From Gemmatimonadales bacterium (GTDB taxonomy: Bacteria; Gemmatimonadota; Gemmatimonadetes; Gemmatimonadales; JACORV01), in assembly GCA_030697825.1 (NCBI GenBank), contig JAUYOW010000067.1:1-52349 (forward strand): DNA of 52,349 bases, in the 5' to 3' direction. A program made the translations under genes and the position numbers. This document shows positions 43,084 through 52,128 of this stretch, one piece after another. The notes under the pieces were generated by a model. It saw only the letters and a program-made list of their open reading frames with translations. It did not search any database and was not told the origin of the DNA. How positions within the stretch are numbered: position 1 is the stretch's first letter; every line of letters starts with the position of its first letter.

Positions 43084-45309
43084 GTGGGTCGTCGGCCGGT
43101 CCTGATGCTCCTTCTTGCTGCGCTGGCGATGCCGGCGCAAGGCGCACTCTCCCAGGGTGTCGACGGACGCCCACGCGAGCCGTTCGGGTTCGATTTCAAG
43201 CCCGACGCCGTGTGGCGCGTCCGCGCGCGGCGGGTTCGCCTCGCTCGGGCGCGCGCGCTGGCCCTTGGCGACTTTCGCTCCCTCAACTCAGCCCTCGCGT
43301 TCCGCGCACCGGTGGCGCTGCGCGCCCAGGCAGCCCCGTCACCCACGGCGGTCTCCGGCGTACTGAAGGTTCCGTACTTCCTGGTCAGCTTCCGCAACAC
43401 CGATCCGACCGCGCTGCTCCCGGTCGCGGCATACGACACGGCCCTCACGTTCGCGACGGCCCCGCCGGGGCGGCCCTACACCGTGCGCACCTATTACGAG
43501 GAGATGTCGAACGGGTTGCTGAGCCTCCAGGGCCAGGTGCTCGCGCGGGTCGCGCTCGACAGCAATGACACCTGGTACGAAGGGAACTGCAACGCGCTGT
43601 GCTCCTCCGGCGCCAGCCCCGGGCGCATGGCGCAGCTCATGCGCGAGGCGATCCTGGGCGTGGACTCGACGGTCAACTTCGGTCTGTTCGACAACGATGG
43701 GCCGGACGGGATCCCCAACTCGGACGACGACGATGGCGAGGTGGACATCGCCGGGTTCATACAGCCGGAGCTGGGCGGGGAGTGCGTGGCCAAGGCTCCG
43801 TCATCCGCGAACAACATTTGGTCACACCGCTATTACTACAGCGCCTGGACCGGACAGCCTTACACGACCAACGATCCGCGCACGGGGGGCGGGCCGATCA
43901 GGATCGACAACTACACGATCCAGTCGGGCGTCGGAGGCAGCGACGCCTGCACCGGCGCCCAGATCATGGGCATCGGGACCATCGCCCACGAGATGGGACA
44001 CGGCCTCGGCCTCGACGACCTTTACGACACGAATCCCGACGACGGCGACGACTCGGAGGGGGTGGGCCATTGGGGGCTAATGGGCTCGGGCGGCTTCGCG
44101 ACGCCGTTGAGCCCCGCCAGCATGGAGGCCTTCTCGCGCGCCGAGCTGGGTTGGATCGCGGTCCGCGCGCTCACGCTTCCCGGCTCGTATCAACTTGGTC
44201 CCACCGCCGTCGGGGATACCGCGTTCCTGATCCGCCCGACCGTCGCGAACCTGCGCGGGGAGTACTTCCTGCTCGAGAACCGGCAGGCGGCGCTCTCGGA
44301 CACGGCGTTGATCCGGTCGAAGGGCCCGGGACTGCTGATCTGGCACGTGGACTCGACCAAGTACGCGCAGAGCTTTTTCTTGAACGAGGTGAATTCGGGC
44401 CCGATCCACGCCGTGTGGCTGAGGCAGGCCGACGGGTTGAACCACCTGCGCAGCAGCACCCCGGACGTCCGGAACCGCGGCGACGCCGGTGACCCGTTCC
44501 CGGGCACCACGAACAACACCGTCTTCGGTGCGGCTACGAACCCGTCATCGAACCTCAACACCGGCCTGCCGTCGGGCATCCAGATCGATTCCATCCGCCA
44601 GGTGACCCCCGGAGGCGCAGTCGCCTTTCACCTGCTGGCGGGGAGCGAGGTCCGGGCGAGCGACACGGCGGCGGTTGTGCGGGTGAACGGGGTCGCGTAC
44701 AGTGTGTTCCGCCGGCTCGTGACTTCGGGCGCGGAAACGCTGCTGGTGGACATCGACTCCGTGCAGACGACCGGCGGGGGCGTGACGCGCTTCGAGTTCC
44801 GCGGCTGGAGCGACAGCGGGGCGCGCTCGCACACCGTCATTGTCACGCCGGCGAACCCGCTCTCACTGGTGGCGCAACTCGCCGTGTTCCACCGGGTCAC
44901 GGTGTCGAAGAGCGGCAACGGCACGATCACCATCTCGCCGAGTCTCGGCGCGGGCGGGAGCGCTATGCTCCCCGCGACCGACACCTTGCGCGTCACCGCG
45001 AGCCCCTCACCGCAGAACATCTTCGTGGCGTGGGATGGGGACACGACCAGCCTCGATCCGTCCCTGGCGCTGCTGGTCAGGCGCCCGCTGACCCTGACGG
45101 CGTCGTTCACTCCACTGCTGCTGGATAGCGTAGTGGCTCAGCTGCTGAGAGGCTCGGGGCTCACCGATGCGCAGCAGAGCCTGATGGACCTCCAGGCCAA
45201 CAACAACGGCGTCTTCGACCTCGGCGACTTCGTGGCGTGGCTCGACCGGTCGGGCACGACCGTGAGCGCGCAGGTGATGGCCCGCGTGCTGGGGAGGCTG
45301 CGGCGATGA
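43084..45309 (+). CDS. Secreted M6-family metalloprotease with C-terminal dockerin-like region
   Basis: Protein of 741 residues. Signal peptide VLMLLLAALAMPAQGALS. The peptidase M6 (immune inhibitor A-like) domain occupies ~95-400 with VPYFLVSFRNTDPTALLP, YYEEMSNGLLSLQGQV and the zinc site IAHEMGHGLGLDDLYD, then GHWGLMGSGG. A beta-rich region and an InlB-type repeat domain (VTVSKSGNGTITISPS) follow. The last ~65 residues (GLTDAQQSLMDLQANNNGVF, then DLGDFVAWLDRSG) resemble one dockerin module with a D/N-rich calcium-loop-like segment. The GTG at 43084 has GGGAGA upstream. It overlaps the lipoprotein gene by ATGA. The role is probably extracellular protein breakdown. Confidence 0.9.
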   Translation: MGRRPVLMLLLAALAMPAQGALSQGVDGRPREPFGFDFKPDAVWRVRARRVRLARARALALGDFRSLNSALAFRAPVALRAQAAPSPTAVSGVLKVPYFLVSFRNTDPTALLPVAAYDTALTFATAPPGRPYTVRTYYEEMSNGLLSLQGQVLARVALDSNDTWYEGNCNALCSSGASPGRMAQLMREAILGVDSTVNFGLFDNDGPDGIPNSDDDDGEVDIAGFIQPELGGECVAKAPSSANNIWSHRYYYSAWTGQPYTTNDPRTGGGPIRIDNYTIQSGVGGSDACTGAQIMGIGTIAHEMGHGLGLDDLYDTNPDDGDDSEGVGHWGLMGSGGFATPLSPASMEAFSRAELGWIAVRALTLPGSYQLGPTAVGDTAFLIRPTVANLRGEYFLLENRQAALSDTALIRSKGPGLLIWHVDSTKYAQSFFLNEVNSGPIHAVWLRQADGLNHLRSSTPDVRNRGDAGDPFPGTTNNTVFGAATNPSSNLNTGLPSGIQIDSIRQVTPGGAVAFHLLAGSEVRASDTAAVVRVNGVAYSVFRRLVTSGAETLLVDIDSVQTTGGGVTRFEFRGWSDSGARSHTVIVTPANPLSLVAQLAVFHRVTVSKSGNGTITISPSLGAGGSAMLPATDTLRVTASPSPQNIFVAWDGDTTSLDPSLALLVRRPLTLTASFTPLLLDSVVAQLLRGSGLTDAQQSLMDLQANNNGVFDLGDFVAWLDRSGTTVSAQVMARVLGRLRR

Positions 45310-45716: not shown

Positions 45717-48068
45717 ATGAGCCGTACGCTCGCACTCCTGGCGATCACCTTCGCCGGGGGGTTCGTCGCGCCGCTCCAGGCGCAGCGTTCCGGACCCGCC
45801 TCGCCCGCACCGGCATCACCTTCGTCCCCCGCTTTCGACCTCACCATAGACAACATCATGCGCGGCCCCGACCTCTACGGCACGCCGCCACGCCTGGTCC
45901 GGTTCTCGGACGACTCGCGCTACGTCTACTTCCGTTGGAAGAAGCCGGACGTGGACACCGCGGAAGCGTCGTACCGCGTGGCTGTGACCGGGGGCGAGCC
46001 GGAGAGGATGGCGTCGCCGGCAGACAGCGGGTATCCGCAGAACGGCGTCTGGTCGCGGGACCGGCGCGCGAAGGCCTATCTCTTCCGCGGCGACGTGTAC
46101 CGGTTCGACGCGGTGCGCGGCCAGCGCCGACGCCTCACCGACACGCCCGGAGCGGAGGGCAACGTCCAGCCCCCGGGGACGGGCGCACCGTGTACTTCGT
46201 CCGCGACAACAACGTCTACGGCATCTCGCTCGACGGCGGTCCGCTGCGCCAGGTGACCGACATCCGCCGCGGCCCGGAGCCCGCGGGCGCGGCGCGCGAC
46301 ACGACCGGCCAGCGCGCTTTCCTCCGGGCCCAGCAGCGGCGGCTCTTCGAGTTCGTGCGCCGGCCTCCGCGAGCGGACCCCGATCCCTTCGCGATCCGCG
46401 GCGATTCCGACACCACCGGTCCGCGCCCCTTCTATCTCGCCGAGGGACAGAACATCCAGTCGTGGGACGTCTCGCCGGACGGGCGCTACCTGCTCCTGAC
46501 GGTGAGCGACCGCGCCGCGGGCGCGCGGTGCAGACACTGCCCATCTGGGTGAGCGCGACCGGCTACGTCGAGACCCAGCCCAACCGCACCAAAGTGGGCG
46601 ACGAACAGTCGCGCACCCGCGCCGCCATCCTGGAACTGGCCACCGGCGCGGTGAACTGGGTGGACCCGGGCCTCGGCCGGCGCCAGCTGAGCGTGCGCGG
46701 AGTGGGCTGGTCCGCGAGCGGCAGCCGCGCGCTGGTGCGCGGCATGGCGGCGGACTTCAACGACCGCTGGCTCTGGGTGGTGGACGTGCCCGGCTTCGCG
46801 GTGCGCCAGGTGGACGTACTGCACGACAGCGCGTGGGTCGCTCAGCTCTCGTACAGGCCGGATGGCTACCTGACGGCGAGACGATCTGGTTCACGTCGGA
46901 AGTTTCCGGGTGGGCGCACGCCTATACCGTCCCGGCCTCGGGTGGAACGCGGCGCGCCTTGACCAGCGGCCCGTGGGAGGTGCAGGGAGTGGAGCTGTCC
47001 CCCGACGGACGACGCTTCTATTTCCACTCCAGCGAGGTTCACTGGGGCGAGCACCATTTCTACGCGATGGGAACGGACGGCGCCGGCAAGACGCAGCTCA
47101 CGCGAGGCGAGGGCCGGCACGACGGGGTGGTGAGTCCGGACGACCGCTGGCTCGCCATCATGTATTCGCAGGCCAATCATCCGCCGGAGCTGTACATCCA
47201 GGCCAACCGCCCCGGCGCGCCGTGGCGGCAAGTGACGGAGTCCACCACCGAGGAATTCCGTAGCTTCGCATGGCGCGTGCCGGAGCTGGTGATGGTCCCG
47301 GCGCGCGACGGGGTGCAGGTGCCGGCGCGATTGTACCGGCCCACGGGCCGGTCCAACGGCGCGGGCGTGATCTTCGTGCACGGCGCCGGCTACACCCAGA
47401 ACGTGCACAAGTGGTGGTCGTCATATTCGCGGGAGTACCTGTTCCACCACCTGCTGGCGGAGCGAGGCTACACGGTGCTCGACCTGGACTACCGTGCGAG
47501 CGCCGGCCACGGGCGCGACTGGCGGGCCGCGATCTACCGGCACATGGGCGGCCCCGACCTCGAGGACAACGTGGACGGCGCGCGGTGGATGTCTCGCACG
47601 CTGGGCGTGGACTCCACGCGGATCGGGATCTACGGTGGCTCGTACGGCGGCTTCATCACTCTCATGGCCATGTTCACTACTCCGGGTGTCTTCCGGGCCG
47701 GTGCCGCGCTCCGGCCGGTGACCGATTGGGCGCACTACAACCACGGCTACACGGCCGCGATCCTCAACGAGCCGCAGGAGGACAGCACCGCGTATCTCAG
47801 GTCTTCCCCGATCTATTTCGCGGAGGGACTGAGCGGCGCCCTGCTGATCTGCCATGGCATGGTTGACGACAATGTCAATTTTCAAGACGCCGTCCGACTA
47901 TCGCAGCGGCTCATCGAGCTGCGCAAGGAGAACTGGGAGATCGCCATTTATCCCGTCGAGCCGCACGGCTTTCGGCAGGCATCCAGCTGGGCGGACGAAT
48001 ACCGGCGCATTCTCCGGCTGTTCGACACCAACCTGCGGGAGCGGGAGACGGTGCGCACGGGGAATTAG
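45717..48068 (+). pseudogene. S9 prolyl oligopeptidase/DPP IV-like peptidase, broken by three frameshifts
   Basis: A DPP IV-type peptidase of about 784 residues spread over three frames, in four segments. Segment 1 (from ATG 45717, signal LALLAITFAGGFVAPLQAQ) holds the start of the propeller. The frame changes near 46170-46180 (a CCCCCGGGG run), near 46520-46532 and near 46850-46862. Each change equals the loss of one base. The last segment carries the alpha/beta hydrolase: GVIFVHGAGYTQNVHKWW, nucleophile GIYGGSYGGF, the Asp region HGMVDDNVNF and the His in PVEPHGF. All catalytic parts are therefore intact across the breaks. Either it is a young pseudogene or these are assembly errors in GC runs. 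GGAG precedes the ATG. Confidence 0.85.
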
Positions 48069-48193: not shown

Positions 48194-48266
48194 GGGGCGG
48201 TAGCTCAGCTGGGAGAGCACCTGGTTTGCAACCAGGGGGTCACGGGTTCGAATCCCGTCCGCTCCA
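48194..48266 (+). tRNA. tRNA-Ala (anticodon TGC)
   Basis: A 73-base cloverleaf. Acceptor GGGGCGG pairs with CCGCTCC (one G-U), D-arm AGCTCAGCTGGGAGAGC, anticodon arm CCTGGTTTGCAACCAGG with anticodon TGC, T-arm CGGGTTCGAATCCCG, discriminator A. The 3' CCA is not encoded. G3-U70 in the acceptor is the identity element of tRNA-Ala. Confidence 0.97.
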
Positions 48267-48275
48267 TCCTTGTTA

Positions 48276-48612
48276 ATGGACGCCTCGACGCTCCATCAGT
48301 ACCGAATCGTCAAGCTTTTCCTCGGTGCCGGCTTGGTGGCGGCGATGCTTGCGGTCGCGCTGCTCCGGACCGCCGGCAGGGCGACGGGCGGCCCCGCGGA
48401 GCCGGCGCGCGACGAGACCCGCGTCGGCCCCTGGCGCGATGTGCTCGGCCTACTGGTCGCCATCGCGACCTCCGGGACCCTCCTCTATCTCCTTTCCCAT
48501 CGGCCTCGTCTTCCGGTTCTTCCAGACCTGGCAGTCCGTCGCCCTCCTGGTCGCGTTCGTGATCGTGGCGGCAGCGCCGGGGGTCTACGCGGTGAGGACG
48601 CGCGCCCTGTGA
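48276..48612 (+). pseudogene. Complex I subunit A-like membrane protein with a one-base frameshift
   Basis: A protein of about 111 residues with three hydrophobic segments starts at ATG 48276, ten bases after the tRNA. The frame shifts by one extra base at about 48489-48493 (CTCCTTTCCC); removing one C joins DVLGLLVAIATSGTLLYL to FPIGLVFRFFQTWQS. Size, three helices, the LYLFP block and the ending VYAVRTRAL resemble NuoA. The conserved D-V-E before that block reads T-S-G, however, and the YECG loop is missing. So it is either a decayed nuoA relative or an intact gene with a sequencing error. It precedes H-, J-, K- and N-like genes, in nuo order. Confidence 0.55.
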
Positions 48613-48625
48613 CGCTGGCCGACCG

Positions 48626-49327
48626 GTGAAGGCGACCGACGACCTGTCGGAGAGCGTCGGCCTTTCGATCGCCGCGCTGGTCCTCGCCTCGGTGATCCCG
48701 ATGGCCACCACCGGGCCGTTCGCCGACCTTCCGTACGGTCTCTTCGTCCTAGTGGCCGGCTACGCCGGTGTCGCGCTCACGCTGGCGGTCACGGGCACGG
48801 CCGGCGACGACTGGATGGCGGCGGCGGAGCGACCGGGTGGGGCGATCGTCTGGGCGGGATGCTGGGTGGCGATGGTGCTGGCGATCGCCGCGGTCGTCGT
48901 GACGGCACAAACGATGGATCTGCGCAACGGGGTGCTGGCCCAGGAGAACACGCTGCCCTATCTGCTGCTGCAACCGGTCGCCGCGCTCGGGTTCGTACTC
49001 GCGCTGGCGGTCGCGGTGAGTCACGGCGTGCGCCCGCCCATGGGGGACGCCCCCGGCGCGCGCCGCCTAGCTGAAGGACTGCACCTCCTGGTCGGATGCG
49101 CGGTCGGAGGCACGCTGTTCCTCGGAGGCTACTCGGGCCCGTTCCTCTCCGGACCCGTCTGGCTGCTCGCGAAGGCCGGCGCTCTCATGCTCGCGGTGCT
49201 GGCGCTGAGCCGCCGGCTTAGCGGACTGCCGGACGAGCGGCGGCGGGGCCTGGCCTGGCGCGTGCTGGCCCCGGCCGCGCTGCTCAACCTGATCGCCACG
49301 TTCGTCGCGGTCGGTCGGCCCCGGTGA
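48626..49327 (+). CDS. nuoH: Shortened complex I subunit H-like membrane protein
   Basis: Membrane protein of 233 residues resembling the C-terminal two-thirds of NuoH. TGPFADLPYGLFVLVAGYAG matches the NuoH block after TM2, EGLHLLVGCAVGGTLFLGGY and WLLAKAGALMLAVLALSRRL match its last helices, and WRVLAPAALLNLIATFVAV its end. The first ~80 residues of normal NuoH, including the RVGPNR quinone-site motif, are absent. The acidic loop PFDLxEAExE is replaced by SHGVRPPMGDAPGA. Since the upstream stop lies 14 bases before the GTG, the missing start is real unless the gene is rearranged. A normal quinone-reducing role is unlikely. It overlaps the J-like gene by GTGA. Confidence 0.7.
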   Translation: MKATDDLSESVGLSIAALVLASVIPMATTGPFADLPYGLFVLVAGYAGVALTLAVTGTAGDDWMAAAERPGGAIVWAGCWVAMVLAIAAVVVTAQTMDLRNGVLAQENTLPYLLLQPVAALGFVLALAVAVSHGVRPPMGDAPGARRLAEGLHLLVGCAVGGTLFLGGYSGPFLSGPVWLLAKAGALMLAVLALSRRLSGLPDERRRGLAWRVLAPAALLNLIATFVAVGRPR

Positions 49328-49845
49328 ACTGGGCCGGCTTCGGGTTCGGCGCGTCTGCGACCATCGCGGTGCTCGGCGCGGCCGTGGTAGCCCTGGCGCG
49401 CGGCGCCGCGCCCGCGATCGCGGGCTTCGCCCTCTCGATGCTCGGAGTAGCGGGCGTCTGCCTGACGCTGGGCGACGACTTCCTGGCCATCCTCATCGTC
49501 CTCGTCATGTCGGCGGCGCTGCCGGCAGGACTGCTCGCGGCCGCGAAGATCGCCCCCGCCGCCGCGCGGCCGCCGCGCCGGTCCCGCGTCTCCGTCGCGA
49601 TCGTCATCGGCCTCGCGGCGTTCGCCGGGCTGACGGCGCTCGTACTCGGCACCGAATGGCCGCCCGCGGGTGGCCAGCGGGAGACGGCCGCGGTCTGGGT
49701 CGGCTGGGGGCTGCTCACCGACTCGGTCGCGGCCTTGGAGCTCGTCGGGGCGCTGCTCGCCGTCGCCGCCATCGCGGCACTGGTCCTCGCGAGGGCGGCT
49801 ACGGGGCCGCGAGAAGAAGTGGAGGATCGGTCGCCGAGACCCTGA
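49324..49845 (+). CDS. nuoJ: Complex I subunit J-like membrane protein
   Basis: Membrane protein of 173 residues with about five helices. AAPAIAGFALSMLGVAGVCL and TLGDDFLAILIVLVMSAA match the NuoJ blocks around TM2-TM3, where NuoJ usually reads FLAxxQxxVYVGAI; here the Y-V-G-A part is M-S-A-A. WVGWGLLTDSVAALELVGAL fits the late NuoJ helix (LVGxLLLVAxVGA). The GTG start overlaps the H-like stop (GTGA). The stop overlaps a CTG that probably starts the K-like gene. The TM3 pi-bulge region used in proton transfer is therefore changed. Confidence 0.72.
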   Translation: MNWAGFGFGASATIAVLGAAVVALARGAAPAIAGFALSMLGVAGVCLTLGDDFLAILIVLVMSAALPAGLLAAAKIAPAAARPPRRSRVSVAIVIGLAAFAGLTALVLGTEWPPAGGQRETAAVWVGWGLLTDSVAALELVGALLAVAAIAALVLARAATGPREEVEDRSPRP

Positions 49846-50159
49846 CCTACACGCTGGTGGCGGCCGCGGCTGTCTTCTCGCTCGGCCTGGGCTCGCTGAT
49901 CTGCCGGCGCAGCTTGCTGGGAGCGCTCCTCGCGTTCGAGCTGATGCTGGCCGCCGCGATCCTGACGACGGCCGCCACGACCACTCTCTCGGGATCGCAG
50001 AGCGCGCTGGGCCAGGTGGTAGCGGTCGTGCTCGTCGGGGCGGGCGCGGCGGTCGGCGTGCTCGTGATCGGCGCTCATCTGGCGAGCGCGGCCGGCGCGG
50101 CCGGTGGGGCCGGGGGGGGCGGCGGCGCGGGTCGGGTGGGCGGAGCGCCGAAGGCGTGA
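49842..50159 (+). CDS. nuoK: Complex I subunit K-like membrane protein
   Basis: Protein of about 105 residues with three helices. TYTLVAAAAVFSLGLGSLI, then CRRSLLGALLAFELMLAA, match NuoK, keeping the helix-2 glutamate (FELM). The second key glutamate, in the usual AAAEAAIG block, is replaced: VVAVVLVGAGAAVGVLVIG. A Gly/Ala-rich tail (GGAGGGGGAGRVGG) is unusual. The start is probably CTG at 49842 inside the J stop (CTGA), giving near-normal NuoK length; the only alternative is GTG at 49857, which cuts into helix 1. The stop overlaps the N-like GTG start (GTGA). Confidence 0.75.
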   Translation: MTYTLVAAAAVFSLGLGSLICRRSLLGALLAFELMLAAAILTTAATTTLSGSQSALGQVVAVVLVGAGAAVGVLVIGAHLASAAGAAGGAGGGGGAGRVGGAPKA

Positions 50160-51568
50160 GCCGGCTGGTCGCGCTCGCGCCGGAGTTGGCGCTCGTCTGG
50201 ACCTCCGTCACGTTGTTCGCCATGATGCCGGGCCGGAGGCGGCGCGCTTCGGGTGTCGTGCTCGTCGGCGGCGGGATCGCGGCGCTTGCGGCCGCGATAG
50301 GCACCATCGGCGTGAGCGACGAGTTCCTCTATCTCGCGTACCGGGTCGATGCCTACTCCCAGGCCGCGAAGGGGATAGTCATCGCCGGCCTGGTGCTCGC
50401 AGGCACCACCCGCGGCGCGACGGGGCACCCCGAGCCGGCCGCGGAGGACCAGTTCTTCCTGGTGGTCGCGGCGATGGGTCTCGTCGTCGCCGCCAGCCTG
50501 GTCGATGTGCTCGCGCTCTTCCTAGCCCTGGAGATCACGTCAGTAGCGATGATCGCGCTCGCCGGGCTAGGCAGCCTCGCCGACGGGCATCGCGGCTGGG
50601 GGCGGCTGACCAGCACGAGCCTCACGCCGTCGGCGCTCGGCGCGCTCGGCCTCGCGCTGCTCGTCGGAGCGACGGGGGCCACGCGGCTCGCCGACATCAC
50701 GTCCGCGCTCGGCGCCGATGCCGCGCAGCCGGCCGGGTTCGCGGGCGCAGCGCTCTTCCTTTGCGGGTTCCTGGTGCGGTGGGGTGCGGCGCCGTTCTAC
50801 GCCTGGCTGCCCCACCTGCTGCGCGACCCTTCGCCGCGCGCCGCGCTGTTCGCCGGTACCTCCATCTGGATGGGACTCGGCGTGGTCATCGTGCGTCTGG
50901 TCGCCGCGCTCGCGCCGCTCGGCCATTCCCTCGCCGTGCTCCTCGCGCTCGTGGCGGTAGTGGCCTTCCTGTTCGGGACCTCCAACCTGCGGCCACGAAG
51001 GGACGCGAGGTGCCTGCTGTCGTACCTGCTCGTGGCGCAGTCGGGCTTCGTGATCGCGGCGCTTGCGACGCCGGGCCCGCGGGCCGTTTCGGCGGCGCTC
51101 GCCGCCACGCTGGTGGTGGCTGCAGCCAACGCCGCGATCCTGCTCGTCCTCACCGACTCGACGGCCCGCGGGCCGGTCACCGGACCCGGCGACTTCCGCG
51201 CGATCGTTGGGCGCTCACCCTTCGTGGCCGTGCCGCTCGTCACCGGTCTCCTGGCGCTCGCCGCGCTCCCGCCGACCGCGGGGTTCCTGGCCCGGTGGCG
51301 CCTCCTCGACGCCGCCTGGCGCGAGGGATGGTGGGCACCGGCGCTGGCCGGGTTGGCCGCCAGCACCGTTCTCGCGTTCCTCGCGCTCGCCCTGGTGCGT
51401 CAGCTGCTGGTACGCGGGGACAGCGGGCGCGGGGCCGCCGCCGCTCCTCCGCCCGCGCGCGTTGCGCTGAAGGTGGCCTGGGCGCTCGCGATCCTGCTGC
51501 TCGTCCTGGCGCTGGCTCCGGGGCCGCTCCATCGCGGCGCCGACTTCCTGTCCCACTTCGTGATCTGA
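50156..51568 (+). CDS. nuoN: Complex I subunit N-like antiporter-type membrane protein
   Basis: Protein of 470 residues with about thirteen to fourteen helices, the size of NuoN. LVALAPELALVW is the NuoN start. LALFLALEITSVAMIALAGL keeps the TM5 glutamate. GFLVRWGAAPFYAWLPHLLR corresponds to the FKxxxxPFHxWxPD block with Lys changed to Arg, and LPPTAGFLARWRLLDAAWRE to the PPTxGFxxK block, again Lys to Arg. The TM7 lysine region (GRLTSTSLTPSALGALGLAL) lacks Lys. The GTG start overlaps the K-like stop. NuoL and NuoM homologs are missing, so this is the only antiporter-like subunit in the cluster. Confidence 0.85.
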   Translation: MSRLVALAPELALVWTSVTLFAMMPGRRRRASGVVLVGGGIAALAAAIGTIGVSDEFLYLAYRVDAYSQAAKGIVIAGLVLAGTTRGATGHPEPAAEDQFFLVVAAMGLVVAASLVDVLALFLALEITSVAMIALAGLGSLADGHRGWGRLTSTSLTPSALGALGLALLVGATGATRLADITSALGADAAQPAGFAGAALFLCGFLVRWGAAPFYAWLPHLLRDPSPRAALFAGTSIWMGLGVVIVRLVAALAPLGHSLAVLLALVAVVAFLFGTSNLRPRRDARCLLSYLLVAQSGFVIAALATPGPRAVSAALAATLVVAAANAAILLVLTDSTARGPVTGPGDFRAIVGRSPFVAVPLVTGLLALAALPPTAGFLARWRLLDAAWREGWWAPALAGLAASTVLAFLALALVRQLLVRGDSGRGAAAAPPPARVALKVAWALAILLLVLALAPGPLHRGADFLSHFVI

Positions 51569-51579
51569 CCTGACGGGCT

Positions 51580-51608
51580 TTGCTCCGCGGCACGCGCGCC
51601 GGTAGATT
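51580..51608 (+). promoter_or_regulatory. Candidate promoter of the peroxiredoxin gene
   Basis: TTGCTC (51580-51585), a 17-base spacer and TAGATT (51603-51608). It lies just after the N-like gene and about 65 bases before the peroxiredoxin start. Confidence 0.55.
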
Positions 51609-51640
51609 GACTCGTACATCGCATCAGGCATCGGTCTCCC

Positions 51641-51654
51641 TATCACCCATCACC
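51641..51654 (+). repeat. Two heptamers (TATCACC CATCACC) before the peroxiredoxin gene
   Basis: A short heptamer pair in the 5' untranslated region. The 12-mer ATCACCCATCAC at 51642-51653 is identical to part of the palindromic array at 33095-33106, linking the two sites as members of one repeat family. Confidence 0.6.
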
Positions 51655-51672
51655 TTTCGAAAGGCCTGCGCC

Positions 51673-52128
51673 GTGGCCCCCGTCATCGGCCAACCCGCTC
51701 CCGATTTCTCGCTGCCCTCGACCGCAGGGAAGGATGTCACGCTGTCGTCGTTCCGCGGAGACTCCAGCGCCCTGCTCGCTTTCTTCCCGCTCGCTTTCAC
51801 CAGCACCTGCACCGCGGAACTGGGCTCGTTCTCCGCGGATTACCCGCAATTCGAGGCGCTCGGCACCCGCGTGCTCCCGGTCAGCGTGGACTCGATCCCG
51901 TCGCTCCGAAAGTTCAAGGCGAAGGAACGGCTCTCGATTGACCTGCTGTCGGACTTCAACCGGGACGTCTGCCGTCTTTACGACACCCTGCTCGCGGACA
52001 AGTTCTTCTCGCGACGCGCGTACTTCCTGGTCGACAAGGCGGGAACTCTGCGCTGGGCGCACACCGAGACCGAATTGGGGCACCGGCGACAGGACGAGGA
52101 GCTGATCGCCCAGATCAGGGCGTTATAG
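51673..52128 (+). CDS. Peroxiredoxin, AhpE-like
   Basis: Thiol peroxidase of 151 residues reducing hydrogen peroxide and organic peroxides in the cytoplasm. PVIGQPAPDFSLPSTAGKDV is the thioredoxin-fold start, and FFPLAFTSTCTAELGSF holds the peroxidatic cysteine in P-x3-T-x2-C. The later Arg lies in YFLVDKAGTLRWAH. A second Cys (DVCRLYD) sits where 2-Cys Prx lack a resolving residue, so a 1-Cys AhpE type is likely. The GTG at 51673 has GAAAGG about 8-13 bases upstream. The stop lies 14 bases inside the convergent receptor gene. Confidence 0.9.
   Translation: MAPVIGQPAPDFSLPSTAGKDVTLSSFRGDSSALLAFFPLAFTSTCTAELGSFSADYPQFEALGTRVLPVSVDSIPSLRKFKAKERLSIDLLSDFNRDVCRLYDTLLADKFFSRRAYFLVDKAGTLRWAHTETELGHRRQDEELIAQIRAL

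Follow-up and report, generated by a model that had tools for sequence, protein, structure and literature searches.

The window, the whole stretch of 52,349 nucleotides of Gemmatimonadales DNA that was analysed, carries a five-gene membrane module, A-H-J-K-N, which is close to certainly derived from a complete 11-subunit complex I operon lacking NuoEFG. Four genomes of the same family hold the complete operon at this site, and the module is therefore a lineage-specific reduction of an ordinary operon and not an ancient arrangement. In the established structure of complex I, A, H, J, K and N make up one contiguous block at the proximal end of the membrane arm, where it adjoins the peripheral arm. 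Our preferred reading, to which we assign a probability of about 0.55, is that this block is maintained as folded membrane proteins that have neither a redox nor a pumping function, in a residual or new role, and we rank it ahead of late decay.

Gene content, ancestry and distribution

The five genes of the original prediction were confirmed at the coordinates given there (48276-51568): they follow tRNA-Ala(TGC) (48194..48266, + strand; ARAGORN) in nuo order, all on the + strand. A profile search of each protein, proposed there as a check, matched H, J and N to Pfam families, K weakly and A not at all. The A-like gene (48276..48612, +), directly 3′ of the tRNA, was delimited by tblastn with the relatives' A proteins and by a coding-frame scan, and is recognisable solely by this comparison, which finds it in two frames. 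The other four, all on the + strand, are the H-like (48626..49327, 233 amino acids; PF00146, 4e-14), J-like (49324..49845, 173 amino acids; PF00499, 2e-9), K-like (49842..50159, start approximate; NCBIfam NuoK, 5e-6; PF00420, 0.001) and N-like gene (50156..51568, 470 amino acids; PF00361, 3e-26; NCBIfam NuoN, 6e-33), with H, J and K also placed by alignment. Pfam and NCBIfam identify these four as complex I subunits, yet their scores lie far under the curated NCBIfam cut-offs. The overlapping starts claimed for the set are present between H and J and between K and N (GTGA in both cases); J and K overlap (CTGA) only if K starts with CTG, and in the NuoA-like frame there is no overlap between A and H. 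K lacks an ATG, GTG or TTG start, and the sole start at the J stop is CTG, which is the probable start. The C-terminal tail of K is Gly/Ala-rich and unrelated to its homologues. Only 9 bases separate A from the tRNA, the Shine-Dalgarno-bearing leader of 36-55 bases found in the relatives is missing, and the acidic residues of A are lost.

The absence of peripheral-arm and L/M genes was confirmed, as a search of the window detected no remnant of B, C, D, I, L or M. The host genome (3.37 Mb, 333 contigs, 98% complete) retains a complete ordinary 14-subunit nuo operon on contig C49, the proteins of which share about 60-86% identity with those of the genus-mate G002. It holds no B, C, D and I set for the 11-subunit isozyme, linked or elsewhere: D, L and M of that operon are missing from the genome, and the only other D-type gene belongs to the C49 operon. 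L or M counterparts are likewise lacking, the genome-wide PF00361 matches being three copies on C49, the N gene of the module and one truncated match on C61. This last one (G000:C61:270-470, L019) is a Proton_antipo_M match at the contig start and perhaps part of an Mrp or hydrogenase-type antiporter subunit.

The proposal that the module derives from complex I was borne out by its relatives. G003 (MAG DBS2-1.bin69), G004 (Gemmatimonadales bacterium Chersky.24_23), G005 and G006, all of the host's family, carry the complete operon A-B-C-D-H-I-J-K-L-M-N, without E, F and G, at the same site. In all four, tRNA-Ala(TGC) stands 5′ of nuoA. An M6-type peptidase with an InlB-B-like repeat, the upstream anchor in the window (43084..45309, +), lies upstream of this tRNA in G004, G005 and G006, the three relatives with contigs long enough, and homologues of it were found by search in G001, G002, G004 and G005. 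The downstream anchor, an AhpC/TSA peroxiredoxin (51580..52128, +), follows the operon in the relatives, on a separate contig in the case of G006, and is 62-67% identical to their copies; both flanks are on one contig in three of the four. Proteins of the 11-subunit operon are mostly 65-93% identical among G003-G006, and H, J, K and N of the window are 29-47% identical to their counterparts there. The starts of A (MDASTLHQYR) and J (GTGAACTGGGCCGGC) are nearly identical to those of the relatives. In a tree of concatenated subunits the window clusters with the second operon of the family; its branch measures 3.3 substitutions per site, over ten times the length of its sisters' branches (0.2-0.3). 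Descent from complex I subunits is thus seen in profile matches, synteny and tree placement alike. An ancient minimal complex is ruled out by the complete operons that four relatives have at this site, and a chimeric contig by the match of both flanks together with the near-identical A and J starts.

Compared with these operons, three segments have been deleted: B-C-D together with the 5′ part of H (~82 codons), I, and L-M. The GTGA overlaps, which in the relatives lie between I and J and between M and N, lie between H and J and between K and N in the window. The coupling at J and that at N have thus stayed in frame through both internal deletions. The original prediction had named ordinary full operons in relatives and widespread stops in all five genes as observations that would speak against it, and it stands in part: the ancestor was an ordinary operon, and stops are absent from H, J, K and N.

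The family's 11-subunit operon (L009-L012) most resembles copies from Phycisphaerales, other Planctomycetota and a Kofleriaceae MAG (compare L075, L080, L120 and L121), with D 58-60% and M 54-58% identical; when D was used to test further genomes of the order, only more distant copies came up. From these comparisons, horizontal acquisition of the operon by the family is possible. Separately, a paralogue of the peroxiredoxin has an in-frame TGA at the catalytic cysteine (PGUN motif) in G000:C232:17451-17837 (L029) and in G005:C96 (L028), which suggests a candidate selenocysteine peroxiredoxin in these two genomes; similar one-TGA matches are present in G002:C152, G003:C159 and G006:C270.

The reduced module was not found in a second genome among 288 genomes of the order, 394 of the class and 85,462 species genomes scanned. 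The search for the same A-H-J-K-N order that had been proposed thus gave one carrier, a single MAG, among several hundred searched genomes, and a pattern scan of viral contigs gave no match. At each of the about 38 loci whose upstream sequence is long enough, the operon is full. Genomes of Verrucomicrobia, Planctomycetes, Desulfobacterales and other groups with a related N gene have it in a full operon wherever the contig extends far enough. In the genus-mate G002 the site reads M6 peptidase, S9 peptidase, tRNA-Ala and then an unrelated membrane-protein gene; no nuo gene follows the tRNA, and the operon has been lost there. The contig of G001 ends before the site, and this genome shows ordinary nuo genes only.

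Lost and retained residues

The residue losses listed in the original prediction were checked by alignment with 37-40 relatives, and each of them was found. H lacks its first ~82 residues, which include the N-terminal quinone region, and a further 18 internal residues; its acidic loop, ETN-RAPFDIPEAESE in the relatives, reads AVSHGVRPPMGDAPGAR in the window. The protein is thus without both the quinone-chamber N-terminus and the acidic PFDLPEAE loop that complex I requires of H. In K the second glutamate is replaced (Glu74 to Val) and Glu36 is retained, and in J the YVGA segment is replaced by MSAA. Three key lysines of N, corresponding to K217, K247 and K395 of Escherichia coli and located in TM7, TM8 and TM12, are Arg, Trp and Arg, respectively, and the TM5 glutamate is retained. 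Neither the central-axis Lys/Glu set of N nor the two glutamates of K that complex I requires are therefore complete. In E. coli, the exchanges K247A and K395A were shown to abolish most of the NADH oxidase and pumping activity, and K217R reduced the oxidase activity to about 58% (PMC13073174). Among columns conserved in at least 95% of the relatives, H retained 4 of 21 aligned polar residues, compared with 31-32 of 32 in control relatives, and N retained 8 of 24, compared with all or all but one in the controls. Because the quinone chamber, the Fe-S relay and an intact proton path are all missing, a redox-driven proton pump of the known type is very likely ruled out and the module would be in a non-pumping state, a strong inference from the lost residues.

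Selection, decay and other readings

The original prediction had argued that the open, coupled frames speak against simple decay, and this held in neutral simulations of stop counts, hydrophobicity and residue classes, which were started from the relatives' genes and run under a simple mutation model to an amino acid identity of 0.37-0.50. H, J, K and N contain no stop in 992 codons, compared with simulated means of about 4-14 at matched divergence, and no frame-disrupting indel. Runs without a stop made up at most 3%, and this only with a mutational GC of 0.88, which predicts a GC2 of 0.64-0.71, whereas 0.56 was observed. Only 10% of the changed hydrophobic columns went to DEKRHNQP, compared with 33-41% in the simulations (minimum, 27%). 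Conserved Gly/Pro residues were retained at 74% (neutral, 46-55%) and conserved nonpolar residues at 46% (neutral, 33-34%), whereas conserved polar residues, at 28% (neutral, 25-26%), showed no constraint. Signals of topology and packing are thus kept while polar residues change at the neutral rate, which argues that selection has acted on a folded, packed membrane protein but has ceased for the coupling residues. On these statistics, H, J, K and N are shown to be coupled frames under selection for membrane topology and helix packing, and fully neutral decay is disfavoured. Part of the hydrophobicity signal could also arise from selection against toxic products. AlphaFold models of the truncated H (pLDDT, 80.9) and of N (pLDDT, 84.6; pTM, 0.88), both of which lean on functional homologues in the alignment, are confident helical bundles, the first with NuoH of E. 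coli complex I as best PDB match and the second NuoN-like.

The strongest competing explanation, which we consider doubtful but by a good way the most serious of the three, is a late-decay relic: a second complex I, redundant beside the 14-subunit operon, whose membrane genes are eroding without function and whose frames are open by chance, by high GC or through selection solely against toxic products. The neutral rate of change of the conserved polar residues agrees with it, as do the long branch and the rise of GC2 (0.45 to 0.56) with a fall of GC3 (0.98 to 0.90) relative to the relatives, a shift of the kind that relaxed selection produces. Third codon positions are close to saturated. Further support comes from the same-genus G002, with its tRNA-Ala and no nuo gene behind it, and from the frameshift and lost leader of A and the non-standard start of K. 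Against this stand the simulations, which were almost never free of stops at this divergence, the membrane hydrophobicity and Gly/Pro retention far above the neutral expectation, and the lack of frame-disrupting indels in the four genes. Measured as a relic, the module is mixed: A is frameshifted, and H, J, K and N are open and constrained in topology but unconstrained in their conserved polar residues.

The A frameshift was set aside as proof of decay. One extra base near 48492 splits the gene into frame +3 (48276-48498) and frame +1 (48499-48612), with the switch at 48498/48499 in the coding-frame scan. The neighbouring S9 prolyl oligopeptidase-like gene (45717-48068) has three one-base deletions within 2.3 kb, near 46177, 46526 and 46855, relative to the intact copies of G001 and G002, and its codon positions evolve as in an intact gene despite them. 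All frame breaks of S9 and A in the coding scan fall inside 46.1-48.5 kb. The pattern in S9 suggests either a local assembly problem or very recent damage or inactivation. Because a local assembly problem is possible, the A frameshift, which is perhaps an assembly error, cannot safely be counted as decay.

Maintenance is therefore favoured by the sequence statistics and decay by the phylogenetic setting, that is, the empty site in the genus-mate and a single carrier among several hundred genomes. The absence of stops, the hydrophobicity, the Gly/Pro retention, the models of H and N and the surviving GTGA couplings count for a maintained block. Its occurrence in a single MAG, the frameshifted and leaderless A, the K gene without a standard start and the operon loss in G002, which fits progressive loss, count against it. 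In the maintained case, H, J, K and N, left behind by the deletions, would still be made and would assemble into a membrane sub-complex that is not energised and has a non-pumping role, residual or new, for example as a scaffold or in ion permeability. A new job for the module is plausible. More tentatively, we propose an A-H-J-K-N sub-complex freed of the redox and distal pumping modules and maintained in a non-pumping form, in which folds and packing would be selected and the proton path dropped.

An ion transporter of Mrp-like or channel-like type, formed by N, K and J and moving cations or protons passively or by exchange, appears improbable. NuoN, NuoK and NuoJ have their homologues in MrpD, MrpC and the MrpA C-terminus, respectively (PMC7419157), and N has kept its TM5 glutamate and K its Glu36. 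However, the lysines of TM7, TM8 and TM12 of N are replaced, two of them at the positions where alanine abolishes most activity in E. coli (PMC13073174), polar residues as a class are unconstrained, and the stretch holds homologues of A, H, J, K and N only, lacking the L-like N-terminal part of MrpA, MrpB, E, F and G that belong with D and C in an Mrp antiporter. A function within the host's own 14-subunit complex I, for instance as a substitute membrane block or a partner in assembly, is still less probable. In its favour, C49 carries a complete nuo operon, and the retained genes encode the block adjoining the peripheral arm. Against it, H has lost the N-terminal region and the loop, the parts that make up the quinone chamber and touch this arm; the module stems from the other isozyme, that of 11 subunits; and where its proteins (H and N) can be aligned at length with the C49 subunits, identity is only 24-28%.

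Comparison with known systems and significance

Set beside the Desulfitobacterium hafniense system (PMC11238625) and the L009-L012 operons, the module has its direct ancestor in this type by position, gene order and sequence. It shares the start-stop couplings at J and N with the L009-L012-type operons, but differs from them in lacking B, C, D, I, L and M, in its truncated H, in the loss of polar coupling residues and in a sequence that evolves more than tenfold faster. With the 14-subunit complex of C49 it has homologous A, H, J, K and N subunits in common, whereas the C49 enzyme is complete with its catalytic parts and the module is a different paralogue. Mrp antiporters have homologues of J, K and N and, like the module, no redox module; unlike it, they have no counterpart of H or A, possess the MrpA N-domain, B, E, F and G, and retain lysines and histidines that are lost or absent here. 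The chloroplast ndh complex is a dispensable second complex I that was likewise lost stepwise (PMC8621559), whereas the loss seen here has halted, for now at least, at a coherent five-gene membrane block with open frames. Partial nuo sets are common in surveys, with 2,171 species having incomplete sets (PMC12361115). A literature search of open-licence papers found no description of an in-place reduction with loss of the proton path at the residue level.

Complex I is usually viewed as assembled from hydrogenase and antiporter modules. If the module is maintained, it would represent the reverse case, a complete operon cut back at its own site to the proximal block with frames and topology kept; the proximal block could then persist alone, and residues that serve folding could be told apart from those that serve coupling. 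Should it be no more than a relic, it would still be a dated snapshot of the loss of a second complex I. The locus occurs in full, partial and empty states within one bacterial family.
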